From an uncultured Armatimonadota bacterium (lineage in GTDB: Bacteria; Armatimonadota; Fimbriimonadia; Fimbriimonadales; Fimbriimonadaceae): a DNA stretch of 64,000 bases. Position 1 is the stretch's first letter. Every line of letters begins with the position of its first letter. A model generated the notes under the pieces. It made no database searches. It saw only the letters and a program-made list of their open reading frames with translations, and was not told where the DNA came from. Shown here piece after piece: positions 1 to 54,979 of the stretch. The position numbers were made by a program, and so were the translations under genes. The stretch spans positions 1 through 64,000 of the forward strand of contig CAIYLG010000046.1 in the NCBI GenBank assembly GCA_903927025.1. Reading direction: 5' to 3'.

Positions 1-348
1 CGAGAAAGGCTTTGCAGATTCCGAGGCTTCCGGAGCGTGCGCTGAAGCATCACGCGGCGAAGCTTCAGCTCGCGAGAAAGGCTTTGCAGATTCCGAGGCT
101 TGCGGAGCGTGCGCTGAAGCATCACGCAGCGAAGCTTCAGCTCGCGAGAAAGGCTTTGCGGTTTCCGAGGCTTCCAGAGCGTGCGCTGAAGCATCACGAA
201 GCGCAGCTTCAGCTCGCGAGAAAGGCTTTGCAGATTCCGAGGCTTCCAGAGCGTGCACTGAAGCATCACGAAGCGAAGCTTCAGCTCGCGAGAAAGGCTT
301 TGCAGATTGCGAGGCTTCCGGAGCGTGCGCTGAAGCATCACGCGGCGC
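1..348. repeat. 72-bp tandem repeat array, about 4.8 units, cut by the left edge
   Basis: The string CGAGAAAGGCTTTGC recurs at 1, 73, 145, 217 and 289, an exact 72-bp period, and the last unit breaks off near 348. Units differ by a few substitutions only. Each unit contains a CTCGCGAG palindrome and an 8-bp inverted repeat (GCTGAAGC, 13 nt, GCTTCAGC), so either strand could form a hairpin per unit. Because 72 is divisible by three, the array stays open in some frames and can be read on the plus strand as a 24-residue repeat, but there is no convincing start and the composition is Lys/Arg/Leu/His-rich and unlike a normal protein. I read it as a non-coding minisatellite. It ends directly downstream of dapE. 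The number of units beyond the left edge is unknown. Confidence 0.93.
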
Positions 349-369
349 GCCGGGTGAACCCAGCGTTCC
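315..369 (-). repeat. Terminal segment of the array, copy 1 of a dispersed element
   Basis: Read on the minus strand, the sequence from 369 inward runs through GGGTTCACCCG and then GCTTCAGCGCACGCT. The same order and spacing recur on the plus strand near 54465-54504, with 35 of 40 bases identical and no gap. The similarity starts in unique sequence outside the array and runs into the first repeat unit, so the array appears to have grown from, or inside, a dispersed element. Confidence 0.7.
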
Positions 370-1497
370 CTAGGCTTTGGTCAACAGACGCAGGACTCGC
401 TCGTACACCCTCGTCAGCGGCTCAAGGCACGCGATGTCTACGTGCTCGTCGATGGCGTGGATGGAGGCGTTGAGGGGACCGAACTCGGCGACGGGGATGC
501 CGTGGGCGGCGAAGAAGCGGGCGTCGGACGTGCCGCCACTGGTGGAACAGCGTGGCTGAACGCCGGTTTCAGACAGGACTGCCGACTGAAGCGAATTAAC
601 AAGCGGCCCCGCCTCAGTAACAAACGGGTAAGCGGAGACGCTCCAGGCGATCGGATCGACGATGCCATGGGACGTGAACACTTCCTCTACCTTGGACTGA
701 ATCCACTCGGGAGTCTGGGAAGCGCCAAAGCGGATGTTGAACTGGACCATGCACTCGCCGGGAATCACATTATTGGCGCCGGTTCCTGCAGTGAAGTTGC
801 TTACTTGGAGTGTGGTTGGAGGAAAATTGGCATCTCCTAGCCCCCAGCTGATCGCACAAAGTTCAGCGAGCGCGGGAGCTGCTTTATGCACTGCGTTGTC
901 GGCCAGTTGGGGGTAGGCGGTATGTCCTTGAATACCGGAGATTCGAATCTGGCCGGTCATCGACCCACGACGGCCGTTCTTGAGAACATCGCCGAAGACA
1001 TGCTCAGAAGTGGGCTCACCGACGATCGCGGCATTAATGACAACTCCGCGCGAGACAAGGGCGTCAAGTACGGCCCTTGTGCCATGAATGCCAGAACCTT
1101 CCTCATCGCTGGTGAGCAGAAGAGCAATCGTCCCCGCGTGACCCTCTCGGGCAACACGCTCAAGGGCAATCGCCATCGCGGCATCGGATGCCTTCATATC
1201 GCTGGCCCCGCGAGCATACAGAATTCCATCGCGCTCAGTTGGCTCAAATGGGGGCGAGGTCCAGAGATCTTCTCTGCCTGTGGGGACGACATCGGTGTGG
1301 CCGGCGAGACATATCAGCGGTGCTCCGCTGCCATGGACTGCCCACAGGTTGTCCACGTCCGCAAAGCGCAGCGATTCAACTTGGAATCCCGTAGCCGAAA
1401 GCCTAGCCGCAATTGCGGCCTGACATCCAGCATCGTCTGGGGTGACGCTTGGGCGCTTCAGCAAATCCCGCAGCAGCTCAAGCGTCTCGTTGGTCAT
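370..1497 (-). CDS. dapE: Succinyl-diaminopimelate desuccinylase (DapE, M20 family)
   Basis: This enzyme hydrolyses N-succinyl-LL-2,6-diaminopimelate to LL-diaminopimelate and succinate in the cytoplasm, the last step of the succinylase branch before the epimerase. The 375-aa length is normal for the family. The di-zinc site is visible: H67 and D69 in GHTDVV, bridging D100 in ASDMK, catalytic E132 and metal ligand E133 in TSDEEGSG, and a C-terminal His in NASIHAIDE. The dimerisation-lid segment with GRRGS and NVIPGE is present. It is the third gene of a tight dapC-dapD-dapE operon, starting 1 nt after the dapD stop. Downstream it runs directly into the 72-bp repeat array. Confidence 0.97.
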   Translation of the reverse strand: MTNETLELLRDLLKRPSVTPDDAGCQAAIAARLSATGFQVESLRFADVDNLWAVHGSGAPLICLAGHTDVVPTGREDLWTSPPFEPTERDGILYARGASDMKASDAAMAIALERVAREGHAGTIALLLTSDEEGSGIHGTRAVLDALVSRGVVINAAIVGEPTSEHVFGDVLKNGRRGSMTGQIRISGIQGHTAYPQLADNAVHKAAPALAELCAISWGLGDANFPPTTLQVSNFTAGTGANNVIPGECMVQFNIRFGASQTPEWIQSKVEEVFTSHGIVDPIAWSVSAYPFVTEAGPLVNSLQSAVLSETGVQPRCSTSGGTSDARFFAAHGIPVAEFGPLNASIHAIDEHVDIACLEPLTRVYERVLRLLTKA

Positions 1498-1498
1498 T

Positions 1499-2293
1499 TT
1501 AGTCTCGCAGCAGCTCGTTCAGCGAAGTCTTGGATCGCGTCTGCGCATCCACCGTCTTCACAATCACAGCACAGTAGAGGCTGTGGCTACCATCTGCACT
1601 CGGCAGAGAACCCGACACGACCACCGAATTCTCTGGCACACGGCCGTAGAGAATCTCACCCGTGGCTCGGTTGAGAATCTTTGTGCTTTGGCCGATGAAG
1701 ACTCCCATCGAAATCACGCAGTTGTCCTCAACGATCACGCCCTCGACCACTTCGCTTCGTGCTCCGATAAAGCAGTTGTCTCCGATAATGGTCGGGTTGG
1801 CCTGGAGAGGCTCTAGCACGCCGCCGATACCTACGCCGCCGCTCAGGTGAACGCCCTTGCCAATCTGTGCGCAGCTTCCGACAGTAGCCCATGTGTCGAC
1901 CATTGTTCCCTCATCGACATACGCGCCAATATTCACGTAGCTGGGCATAAGAACCACACCCTTGCCGATGAAAGCGCCACGGCGAACAGTTGCGGGAGGC
2001 ACCGCGCGGTAGGAGCCGTCTGGCGTCTTCAGGGGAACCTTGTCCCAAAACTTGATGTCGCCCGCCGCCATTGCACCGTTGTCTTCCAGGCGAAAGGAAA
2101 GGAGAACCGCTTTTTTAATCCATTGGTGAGTGGTCCACTCGCCATTGATGCGTTGGGCCACGCGGATCGCTCCTGAGTCAAGCTGACCGAGGACCTCCTG
2201 CACCGCATTCTTCACATCGGCAGGGGCGTGGCTGGGGGAGAGTTCGGCTCGGCCCTCCCAGGCTGCCTCAATTAAATTCTGCAAATCGCTCAT
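1499..2293 (-). CDS. dapD: Tetrahydrodipicolinate N-succinyltransferase (DapD)
   Basis: This enzyme transfers succinyl from succinyl-CoA to tetrahydrodipicolinate, committing the pathway to succinylated intermediates for lysine and peptidoglycan diaminopimelate. The 264-aa protein has an alpha-helical N-terminal domain (residues 1-100) and then left-handed beta-helix hexapeptide repeats (roughly 100-240), seen as short-period stretches such as [17 protein letters not shown] and [19 protein letters not shown]-terminal segment with the conserved tail of the family follows. Length and order match proteobacterial DapD (about 274 aa). It starts 6 nt after the dapC stop, so the two are almost certainly cotranscribed. 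Confidence 0.97.
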
Positions 2294-2299
2294 TCGAAG

Positions 2300-3463
2300 C
2301 TAGAAGGATATCTCTTTGATTCGATTCAGTGCCTCGGTACAAACATCCAACTCCGCGACCAGCGCCAGACGCACGTAGCCAAGCCCCGGATTTCCGCCAC
2401 CCACCTCGCGGGCTAAGTAGCGTCCGGGCAACACGGTGAGGTTTGCCTTGGCAAGGGCATCCCGCGAAAACTGCTCGTCGTCTCCGACCTTCAGCCAGAT
2501 GAAGAATCCGCCCTCGGGGATCGTTGCCTCGGGCAGGATCTGCGCGCCTGCCGCGAACTTAGCTCGATACTTTTCGCGATTCACAACAACGTGCGCTTCG
2601 TCAAGCCACGCGGGCACGCTGGCTGCCTGAGTGAGCGAACTGGGAGCGGCACCGTGATAGGTTCGATAGAGAAGGAACTTGGCGATAATCTCAGGGTCTC
2701 CTGCGACAAAACCGGACCGGAGACCCGGCGCGCTGGACCGCTTGGAGAGCGAATTAAAGCTGACGACCCGGTCGCATCCGCGCCCCAACTTTTCGCAAGC
2801 CTCAAGAGCACCGATCGGCGGGTTGCCATTGTAAATCTCGGAGTAGCACTCGTCTGCCGCGATGACAAAACCGTACCGGTCCGCGAGTTCAAAAAGTGTG
2901 CGCCAATCCTCCAAACCCATTACTGCCCCCGCCGGGTTGCCTGGGGAACAGACGTAGGCCAACTTCACATTCGGCCACTCTGCTTCGGGAACAGCGTTCC
3001 AATCTGGCATGAAGCCAAAGCTGGCAGGCGTTGGCACGTAAAACGGCTTTGCCCCCGCCACGATCGCCGCACCCTCGTAGATCTGATAGAACGGATTCGG
3101 CAACAGGACCGTCCCGGGAGTAGAAGGATCCAGCACTGATTGGGCGAATCCGAAAAGCGCCTCCCGGGTACCTGCGACAGGGATGACGGCCTTGGCAGGG
3201 TCTGGCGCGGTGATGCCATATCGCTTGCCGATCCAAGTTGAAATAGCCCCCCTAAGTTCTGGCGTCCCACCCGTCGGAGGGTATTTGCCCAGCAGATGCA
3301 TGTTGGACCTCAAAGCATCAGTGATCAGAGCCGGGGTTGGGTGCTGGGGTTCGCCAATTCCAAGGTTAATCGCGCTGATTCCGGTCGGCACGGCTATCCC
3401 ATGATGAAGCAGGCGCAGCTTCTCAAAGGGATAAGGATGCAGGAGTTCGAGTCGCGAGTTCAC
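2300..3463 (-). CDS. dapC: N-succinyldiaminopimelate aminotransferase (DapC-type, class I PLP)
   Basis: This is a fold-type I PLP aminotransferase of 387 aa, placed first in the operon. Its expected job is glutamate-dependent transamination of N-succinyl-2-amino-6-ketopimelate. Visible landmarks are N176 in CSPGNPAG, D204 in AADECYSEIY, the Schiff-base lysine K241 in SLSKRS, and the substrate-carboxylate arginine near GLGYVRLAL. The start is a GTG (3461-3463). A TATAAC box ends 8 nt before it and there is no Shine-Dalgarno sequence, so the message may be leaderless. DapC and other class I enzymes such as ArgD or LL-DAP aminotransferase look alike; the operon context decides for DapC. Confidence 0.92.
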   Translation of the reverse strand: MNSRLELLHPYPFEKLRLLHHGIAVPTGISAINLGIGEPQHPTPALITDALRSNMHLLGKYPPTGGTPELRGAISTWIGKRYGITAPDPAKAVIPVAGTREALFGFAQSVLDPSTPGTVLLPNPFYQIYEGAAIVAGAKPFYVPTPASFGFMPDWNAVPEAEWPNVKLAYVCSPGNPAGAVMGLEDWRTLFELADRYGFVIAADECYSEIYNGNPPIGALEACEKLGRGCDRVVSFNSLSKRSSAPGLRSGFVAGDPEIIAKFLLYRTYHGAAPSSLTQAASVPAWLDEAHVVVNREKYRAKFAAGAQILPEATIPEGGFFIWLKVGDDEQFSRDALAKANLTVLPGRYLAREVGGGNPGLGYVRLALVAELDVCTEALNRIKEISF

Positions 3464-53018: not shown

Positions 53019-54374
53019 CTAGGCCAATTGGTATTCGGGGCAAGTGACAATGAGTTCGACCAAGCCAGAAGCTCGGTTCCAGTAGTGGTTGGCATCCGGC
53101 TTCTTGGGCGCGCCAAGGTGCATATAGTCCAGCAGGATATGCCGGGTATCCGCTCCCATGGGAACAGATGGGAGAATCCAATCCCAGGTGTCGCTGATTG
53201 CCGTATCTGCGGTTCTGTAGGAAGCGTCCGCGTTAACGTGGGACATCGCGAGACCGGCAGTAACCCTGTCTCGCACCAATCCGCGATAGCGAAGCTGATC
53301 CACCGCGTGCTTGGCAAAGTTGAGGCGTGCAGTCATGGTGTTGGTGTTGATCCAGTTTCTTCCCGTCTTCCAGCCCTTCACATTAGGCGGGTTGTACAGC
53401 TGCTGGCCCATGTTGTCGGTGTACTGCTGCATGTCCGAGATCCAGCTATAGGGCAAGTCCAGCGTCTTGATGAGCATCACTGCGTACTGCACCGGGGTCT
53501 TCACCCGAGAGTACAGGGCATCCTGCGAATAGAAGTGGGGGGACGTTAGAACGGCTCGGACCAGTTCTCGAATGCTATAGCCAGACTTGAAGTAGACGTC
53601 GGACAGCCTTGCTACCTCTTCTGGCGGCGCTTCATCGTTGACGAAGTACTCGTAAAGCTTTTGAGATAGGAATTTGGCGGTTGCGGGATGGGCGGCAACG
53701 ATATCAAGCGTTTCGCCCAGGTTGTAGTCACCCTTGTGGCCGAGATACTCCTTGGGACCAGTGTTGTAGGTTTTGGCGTTGAACACCGTGCGATATCGGT
53801 CGGAGTCGTAGGTCCAGCCCGTGAATGACTTAGCCCCTTCCTTCACATCGTGCTCGGTGTAGCCGCTGTTTACGCCCATCGTGAACAGTTCCAGCAGCTC
53901 CCGGCTGAAGTTCTCATTCGGCGCCTTCTTGGTGCTGTTGTTTCCGTCCAGCCAAATCAGCATTGCGGGGTCGGTTGAGATCTCCGCGAGCATCGTGCGG
54001 AAGTTGCCAAGAGCGTGTTTTCGAAAAAGTTTGTTTTGGCGATATTCGATGCTTGGGTTTTGGACTTTGTAGTCCGAGGTGGCAAAGTGGCCGTGCCAAA
54101 AGAGGGTCATCACCTCTTCCATGGGACGCGTAGTTTCGCAGAACCGAAACAGCCAATACCGCTTTAGGGCATCGGTATCCTGAGGCGCAACCAGGCCGCC
54201 CATTGAATCTGTCGGCAGATCGGGGATCTTGTCCGGAGTCTTGTCGTAGTCGATCAGCGCCTTGAGCGCCCCCTTTTCTCCCAGGGTCGACCAGTGCTTC
54301 CAATCCTGTGCCCGGCAGCCAAACGCCGCGCGTCGCAGGAGGTGGTTCATTCGGGCATCTTCGCCAGCGATCAT
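53019..54374 (-). CDS. DUF1800 family protein
   Basis: The 451-aa protein opens with MNHLLRRAAFGCRAQDW and continues with ALKRYWLFRFCETTRPMEEVMTLFWHGHFATSDYKV, then NPNENFSRELLELFTMGVNSGYTEHDVKEGAKSFTGW, the DUF1800 hallmarks, and ends with the PPNVKGWKTGRNWINT region. It is mostly helical and lacks a clear signal peptide. GGAG lies 6 nt before ATG 54374; ATG 54395 would add seven residues. It is cotranscribed with the DUF1501 gene. Function unknown. Confidence 0.95.
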   Translation of the reverse strand: MIAGEDARMNHLLRRAAFGCRAQDWKHWSTLGEKGALKALIDYDKTPDKIPDLPTDSMGGLVAPQDTDALKRYWLFRFCETTRPMEEVMTLFWHGHFATSDYKVQNPSIEYRQNKLFRKHALGNFRTMLAEISTDPAMLIWLDGNNSTKKAPNENFSRELLELFTMGVNSGYTEHDVKEGAKSFTGWTYDSDRYRTVFNAKTYNTGPKEYLGHKGDYNLGETLDIVAAHPATAKFLSQKLYEYFVNDEAPPEEVARLSDVYFKSGYSIRELVRAVLTSPHFYSQDALYSRVKTPVQYAVMLIKTLDLPYSWISDMQQYTDNMGQQLYNPPNVKGWKTGRNWINTNTMTARLNFAKHAVDQLRYRGLVRDRVTAGLAMSHVNADASYRTADTAISDTWDWILPSVPMGADTRHILLDYMHLGAPKKPDANHYWNRASGLVELIVTCPEYQLA

Positions 54375-54455
54375 CATGCTCTCCGACGCCATCATACAAC
54401 CATCTGGCGCTGGTGGCTAGGCACCTGAGCCGCTTCTAATCTTTCCGCCACTAAA

Positions 54456-54516
54456 GGAAGCGTAGGGTTCACCCGACCCGCGACGTGACGCTTCAGCGCA
54501 CGCTAATCCTTGGAAG
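54456..54516 (+). repeat. Solo copy 2 of the dispersed element seen at the left-edge array
   Basis: GGGTTCACCCG (from 54465) and GCTTCAGCGCACGCT (to 54504) repeat the flank-plus-first-unit sequence found on the minus strand at 315-369, with 35 of 40 bases identical and no gap. Only one unit is present here and no 72-bp array. It lies in a gene-free stretch (54396-54640) upstream of DUF1800 and of the small membrane protein gene. Confidence 0.7.
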
Positions 54517-54640
54517 TTACATGGCTCATGGCGCGGGCTAAAGCGCCGCTCTGGAGGTCGGTTGAACTTAGCGCTCCAGTTGGTGCCTTCCCGCAAGATT
54601 AAGGAAATCCTCCCAGCAATCTCACCCGTCTTCAGACGAA

Positions 54641-54979
54641 ATGCCAAAGAAACTCGACAAGTCATCGGTCTCGTTTGGAAGCTGGTTTCTCACGATCTTC
54701 ATGGCCGCGATCCCGTGTCTTGGCGTGCTGTACATCGCGTTTGGCGCACTGTTTTCGACGAACGAATCCCGCCGGAACTTTTACCGTGCCCACTTGGCAT
54801 GGTGGGGAATCATCATCGTCCTCTATGGAGCCTTCTTCATGGTCGGCTTTGCTCCGGATATCCGAAAGCTTTACGACCAGTACAAGCACGGACAACCGCT
54901 TAGCCTGAGCCGCTCCTCGGAACCAGACAGTCACCCTGCCGAGAAAAAGAAGACTAAGAAGCCTGAAGATTCGGAGTAA
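54641..54979 (+). CDS. Small two-helix membrane protein
   Basis: The 112-aa protein has two hydrophobic helices, FLTIFMAAIPCLGVLYIAFGALF (about 15-38) and LAWWGIIIVLYGAFFMVGF (about 52-70), with NESRRNFYRAH between them and a charged C-terminal tail (EKKKTKKPEDSE). It resembles short membrane proteins of the pattern FGSWLLTxxLxAIPLVNxxxLLxWAF followed by KRNFxRAxL seen widely without known function. The tail is polar and probably cytoplasmic. It starts 66 bp before the next gene on the same strand. Confidence 0.75.
   Translation: MPKKLDKSSVSFGSWFLTIFMAAIPCLGVLYIAFGALFSTNESRRNFYRAHLAWWGIIIVLYGAFFMVGFAPDIRKLYDQYKHGQPLSLSRSSEPDSHPAEKKKTKKPEDSE

Follow-up and report, generated by a model that had tools for sequence, protein, structure and literature searches.

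A 72-bp tandem array, probably the amplified core of a REPIN-like element at the edge of a spreading gene cassette, in an uncultured Armatimonadota bacterium

Results

The window, that is, the whole stretch of DNA analysed here, comprises 64,000 bp (G000:C46:1-64000) from the start of contig 46, which is 69,311 bp long and belongs to an assembly of 5.25 Mb in 66 contigs that is 98.4% complete. Base 1 of the window is also base 1 of the contig, and a tandem array with a period of 72 bp, 93% matches and 0% indels occupies positions 1-347 (TRF); the 4.8 copies counted there are what the contig start leaves of the array. The stop codon TAG (372-370) of a DapE-like peptidase M20 gene directly adjoins the array element, as read from the sequence, and this gene, the gene for DapD and an aminotransferase gene together look like a lysine-pathway operon (Table 1). 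The best named homologue of the M20 protein (71%) comes from an uncultured Armatimonadetes MAG. Far downstream, between a DUF1800 gene (53019-54395, minus strand) and an ORF starting at 54641 (plus strand), lies a complete single-unit copy of the same element, 121 bp long. No family was matched in an Rfam scan of the 64-kb window.

Table 1. Features of the array locus and of the single-unit element in the window.
Feature	Position	Strand	Basis
72-bp unit array (hairpin A - spacer - hairpin B)	1..342	-	TRF; units parsed A-to-B
Full units of the array	342-271, 270-199, 198-127, 126-55	-	A-to-B parsing
Partial fifth unit, cut by contig end	54-1	-	A-to-B parsing
A-side outer REP-like end	343..369	-	Outer-hairpin census; heads at 12 arrays
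Head GGAA	369-366	-	A-side end of the array
Outer hairpin CGCTGGGTTCACCCGGCG	365-348	-	A-side end of the array
Peptidase M20 gene (DapE-like)	370..1497	-	Pfam M20, M20_dimer
Tetrahydrodipicolinate N-succinyltransferase (DapD) gene	1499..2293	-	Pfam
Aminotransferase gene	2300-3463
Complete monomeric (single-unit) element	54457..54577	+	Covariance model R1

An earlier note on this DNA had described five starts in 72-bp steps, which is borne out, and an 8-bp inverted repeat in every unit. The latter (GCTGAAGC/GCTTCAGC) was found intact at three of the four junctions (41/62, 113/134 and 185/206) and with GCTGAAGC mutated at the fourth, while CTCGCGAG recurs at 69, 141, 213 and 285. The match that the note placed at 54456-54516 is real and extends further than was claimed, since it covers the complete monomer at 54457-54577 (83.3 bits, E 1.8e-16, positions 1-124 of model R1). 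The proposal that the array grows out of a dispersed element was correct in that the array is the multi-unit form of the hairpin element seen as a monomer there, and the possibility that the core is unique to these two places is contradicted by approximately 60 genomic matches, on more than 25 contigs, to the first 420 bases of the window.

Twelve of the matching loci are arrays, located on contigs C2, C4, C10, C21, C24, C46 (the window), C50, C51, C54, C55, C58 and C65 and ranging in size from 3 to more than 4 units, and the remaining matches are single-unit elements or fragments. The copies are dispersed, and an intergenic position was looked at for a few loci only. Complete arrays are bounded at both ends by the same outer hairpin in inverted orientation, GG(A/G)(A/G)-CGCTGGG-TTCA-CCCGGCG, which has 61 genomic matches at no more than 2 mismatches, compared to 2 for a reversed-pattern control. 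The single-unit form of about 124 bp reads outer REP hairpin, hairpin A, spacer, hairpin B and inverted outer hairpin. Measured from outer hairpin to outer hairpin, element lengths follow the series end + n x 72 + end, with spans of about 116 bp for a single unit, 261 bp for three units (C2, C50 and C58) and 333 bp for four (C4 and C10), so that the five arrays with both ends have n = 3, 3, 3, 4 and 4. The covariance model gave 55 matches in the genome, mostly to single units of arrays. The fold is supported by pair counts from a small set of 8 related monomers of one genome, in which 87.8% of cells were paired and 10 pairs had changed on both sides; covariation in the monomers was 0.264, compared to 0.041-0.104 for slid controls.

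Two inverted REP hairpins bound the complete copies on C2, C4, C10, C50, C58, C19 and C66 and the one at 54457-54577 of the window. The head was GGAA, GGAG or GGGA at all 12 arrays, and not the GTAG or GTGG of REPINs, and we therefore call the element REPIN-like rather than a canonical GTAG REPIN. The array is not CRISPR-like either, as the whole 72-bp unit repeats at 93% without unique spacers. The exact outer-end pattern had no match in a genome contig database from which the window's own genome or very near ones were possibly excluded. The same genome also holds, at C27:7855-8450, three head-to-tail whole copies with a period of about 201 bp of a related element with a longer and different interior, which is an ordinary whole-REPIN tandem cluster.

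Forty-three full units from the 12 arrays were used for comparing divergence within and between loci. Divergence was 7.2% within arrays and 7.0% between them (permutation P 0.74), and all 8 pairs of units identical over 69 positions joined different arrays. Since units are no more alike within arrays than between them, the arrays have either spread as wholes or exchanged units, rather than having grown in place. All four combinations were present at 47 of 210 informative site pairs. Part of this picture could also be produced by chimeric joins at contig ends, but the C2 array is internal to a 276-kb contig. In the four frames that are open through the units, observed and expected synonymous changes were 10/11.3, 11/10.6, 10/10.2 and 12/10.6. 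There was no synonymous bias in any frame, which indicates that the 72-bp unit is not coding.

The surroundings of the arrays were compared on both sides. On the A side, the junction heads of the 12 loci were GGAA (5), GGAG (6) and GGGA (1), a correlation that would fit insertion of the IS200/IS605 type, 3′ of a short target. Eight of the 12 arrays adjoin another palindromic repeat family (GTCCCCTTCCTTTCGCC...GGCGAAAGGAAGGGGAC); the A-side neighbour is the CCCTTCCTTTCGCCNNGGCGAAAGGAAGGG family or a degenerate relative at C65, C51, C2, C4, C55, C58, C24 and C54. With up to 3 mismatches allowed, the CCCTTCCTTTCGCCNNGGCGAAAGGAAGGG palindromic family occurs at 10 places, and its position beside the arrays looks like that of a preferred target. 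On the B side, all five complete arrays run into one common sequence, namely about 200 bp and then the start of a gene whose secreted product has about 197 aa. This gene is degenerate beside the C2 array and represented by its leader only at C4, where the contig ends. All seven arrays that are cut, including that of the window, break on this B side, for which the chance would be 1/128 if both sides were equal. The contig of the window ends inside the array, and for this reason the cassette was not visible in the earlier note.

Twelve near-identical 5′ ends of the cassette gene were counted, five of them from reading on into the gene or at least its leader (C58, C11, C50, C10 and C4) and seven inferred from truncated arrays. 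There are likewise 12 near-identical 3′ ends, which lie at contig ends and have a mean identity of 95.8%, and the degenerate copy on C2 is additional to these. The equal counts of 5′ and 3′ ends support about 12 dispersed copies of the cassette. Of the 132 contig ends in the assembly, 24 would be due to a gene present in about 12 copies. Among the 12 3′ ends, those on C7 and C59 run into a single-unit element, several stop at the GGAGCGTCCCGAT..ATCGGGACGCTCC palindrome or at a remnant reading GGAGCGC, and no clear REP-like end is present in at least two (C49 and C26). One cassette copy, at C11:14300-14884, has no array; there, GGAGCGCTGG is joined without a gap to the leader CTGGTATTTCTCC, which looks like a deletion of the element.

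The cassette protein had no convincing match in Pfam or NCBIfam. Its single-sequence structure model was useless (pLDDT 29), and a model from aligned sequences was mostly beta and weak (pLDDT 60). The best PDB match was the EcpA pilin, with a TM of about 0.3, which is too weak to name a fold.

In 60 relatives, the array query found no match at E <= 0.001, and the monomer model matched in one other genome, G007. This single-contig genome of the same genus has five RAYT (REP-associated tyrosine transposase) relatives, which makes it a closed genome in which the family could be studied, and on G007:C1 elements of 98-102 bp match the monomer model, some of them on both strands. The cassette gene family is present in four genomes of the same genus, with several copies in each and often at contig ends, which shows that the gene can multiply without the array. 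In the sister species G004, a GTAG-headed REPIN of 82-83 bp stands immediately behind the terminator hairpin in five of eight gene copies, and beyond it the flanks are unrelated. This is a different element from that of the array, and it lies at the 3′ edge of the gene. All five complete GTAG elements stand at gene copies, one of them with a second partial element, in 330 kb made up of gene-carrying contigs only, a sample with a bias for contigs that bear cassettes. At E <= 1e-10, G004 yielded no RAYT similar to that on C66. The search for an empty site of the window element gave none; the nearest relative that has the M20 gene is only 71% identical, and with G017 and G007 as a synteny bridge beside the M20 gene no cassette 3′ contig end could be matched convincingly. 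One C10 gene matched at 28%, which is the level of a paralogue, and in the wrong orientation.

Four Y1_Tnp matches were obtained in the genome. One of these, C66:26638-27204, is a REP-associated tyrosine transposase (NCBIfam NF047646, REP_Tyr_transpos; 92.8 bits against a cut-off of 80) in which HVH and YIERNP are kept. Its gene has two complete copies of 123 bp on the upstream side and a shortened one downstream, with the order outer hairpin, hairpin A, spacer, hairpin B and outer hairpin, as in the array family. This shared architecture is a reason for regarding the window element as REPIN-like. In the outer hairpin, the flanking copies differ from the array by a compensatory swap of the loop-closing pair, from GTTCAC to CTTCAG. 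The RAYT is thus flanked by a sister subfamily and not by the identical one, and its link to the array subfamily, on which it would also act, is one of similarity. A second RAYT relative, at C58:4397-4945, is interrupted by an in-frame TAA, and the inverted repeat that flanks it, GGAGTGCGGGATTTATCACGCTTGC, is a different one.

Discussion

Taken together, these results suggest, with a probability that we put at roughly 0.72, that a REPIN-like, non-autonomous element had its core amplified in tandem to give the array, and that in this lineage it lies at the 5′ edge of a cassette of about 12 copies; the array thus probably marks one boundary of a gene cassette that is spreading. A counterpoint is the C11 cassette copy, which has no array. 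The RAYT, a HUH/Y1 single-strand transposase, would most likely recognise the outer hairpins as single-stranded DNA and insert the element 3′ of a GGRR tetranucleotide. The core of hairpin A, spacer and hairpin B was probably duplicated in one lineage, by slippage or unequal recombination, giving elements of the form end-(72)n-end. The multi-unit form would then have become fixed at the 5′ edge of the secreted-protein cassette and have been copied along with it into about 12 near-identical dispersed copies, among which homologous recombination would keep the units mixed. The element ends would in that case serve as cassette ends, and the movement of the cassette would be driven by the RAYT. 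At the window locus, where the element stands directly after the dapE-like stop codon, the unassembled left side most likely enters a cassette copy, which would place a cassette beside this array as well. The earlier note had also thought of a protein-binding site, which is plausible, with the RAYT as the obvious candidate binder.

It is also quite conceivable, although we do not favour it, that the array is a passenger: a REPIN relic would by chance have stood upstream of a gene in multiple copies, the gene family would spread by segmental duplication and gene conversion, and no RAYT would take part in moving the cassette. The gene is indeed multicopy in four relatives, mostly without such elements, C11 carries it without an array, and the units look shuffled among loci as they would be after homologous recombination. 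However, homology between copies begins at the element on the 5′ side, and on the 3′ side many copies part ways at a REP-like palindrome or REPIN or close to one, and five of the eight G004 copies stop exactly at the different GTAG REPIN; in addition, GGRR precedes every A-side junction.

By analogy with BOX elements, of which boxA and boxC stimulate expression and boxB can inhibit it (PMC3049150), the array may be kept as a regulatory or insulating structure for the secreted-protein gene, acting as a transcription stop, on RNA stability or by tuning expression through the number of units. Strong hairpins fit such a role, as does the fact that, counting truncated arrays, 11 of 12 gene copies have the array upstream; we nevertheless consider it unlikely, given that C11 has no array, that the number and content of units vary freely and that the gene occurs without the array in sister species. 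The note's suggestion of phase variation has the array's position upstream of the secreted-protein gene as its sole support.

A plain local minisatellite that grew by replication slippage in place, as the exact 72-bp period without indels and the palindromic unit might suggest, is very improbable. The earlier note's term minisatellite fits loosely, in that copy number varies between loci (3, 4 and more than 4); the units, however, form none of the locus-specific clusters that growth in place predicts, and arrays of the same type with conserved ends occur at 12 loci. Arrays at the ends of contigs, where 7 of the 12 lie, may be chimeras of the draft assembly, but an assembly artefact that joined repeats there deserves even less credence, with a 3-unit array inside the 276-kb contig C2, both ends present in five arrays and monomers inside contigs. 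Least credible of all is a coding repeat of 24 codons, despite the four of six frames open through the units and a 153-aa ORF at 12-473, in view of synonymous changes that match expectation in every frame, degenerate monomers and complete arrays that lie between outer hairpins, upstream of a separate gene.

The closest analogues are RAYT/REPIN systems and pneumococcal BOX elements. As in the REPIN/RAYT (TnpA-REP) systems (PMC3116915, PMC2817692, PMC8266576), an inverted pair of heads and hairpins is found in dispersed copies, and the genome has a Y1/HUH transposase gene flanked by the architecture of the element. Unlike REPINs, our element has a GGRR head instead of GTAG/GTGG and extra inner hairpins A and B, and its copies are fewer than the hundreds of Pseudomonas. 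Local tandem amplification is known for REPINs, in ordered clusters that repeat whole REPINs with their flanks, or REPs (PMC3116915, PMC8049555), whereas here the interior is repeated and a passenger gene in multiple copies adjoins the arrays. The BOX elements of Streptococcus pneumoniae (boxA-boxBn-boxC; PMC3049150) share fixed ends, variable tandem inner modules, dispersal and folding; this likeness is one of architecture, with no sequence relation known, and the element described here differs in that its two ends are inverted copies of each other, carrying hairpins of the RAYT type, and in that the genome has a candidate transposase whose flanks match. A further resemblance is to the TIR families of TIRYT genes (PMC3733652): the sections of that paper drawn on here describe RAYT-like genes with long, partly self-complementary inverted repeats without a GTAG head and some repeat families, and in those sections neither an inner 72-bp amplification nor a gene cassette is described. 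The foldback transposon Tetris of Drosophila virilis (PMC4079207) is likewise non-autonomous, with inverted repeats and internal tandem repeats that amplify to arrays, but it is eukaryotic and unrelated, its repeats lying inside the TIRs and its arrays reaching satellite size. As far as we have searched the open-access literature, a REPIN-like element whose interior is amplified and which borders a multicopy passenger gene is a new variant, and we found no paper there on REPIN/RAYT in Armatimonadota.

The multiplicity of the cassette gene accounts for the breaks found there in this assembly and in four related ones. The usual view of REPINs is that of tiny elements without any cargo. It is tempting, if somewhat doubtful, to suppose that they serve as the ends of a mobile cassette with an ordinary host gene, here that of the secreted protein, which is moved or copied by a RAYT, with unrelated REPINs in this role in at least two species, namely GGRR heads with the 72-bp array here and GTAG in G004. 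If this were true, RAYT activity would be linked to the spread of host genes.
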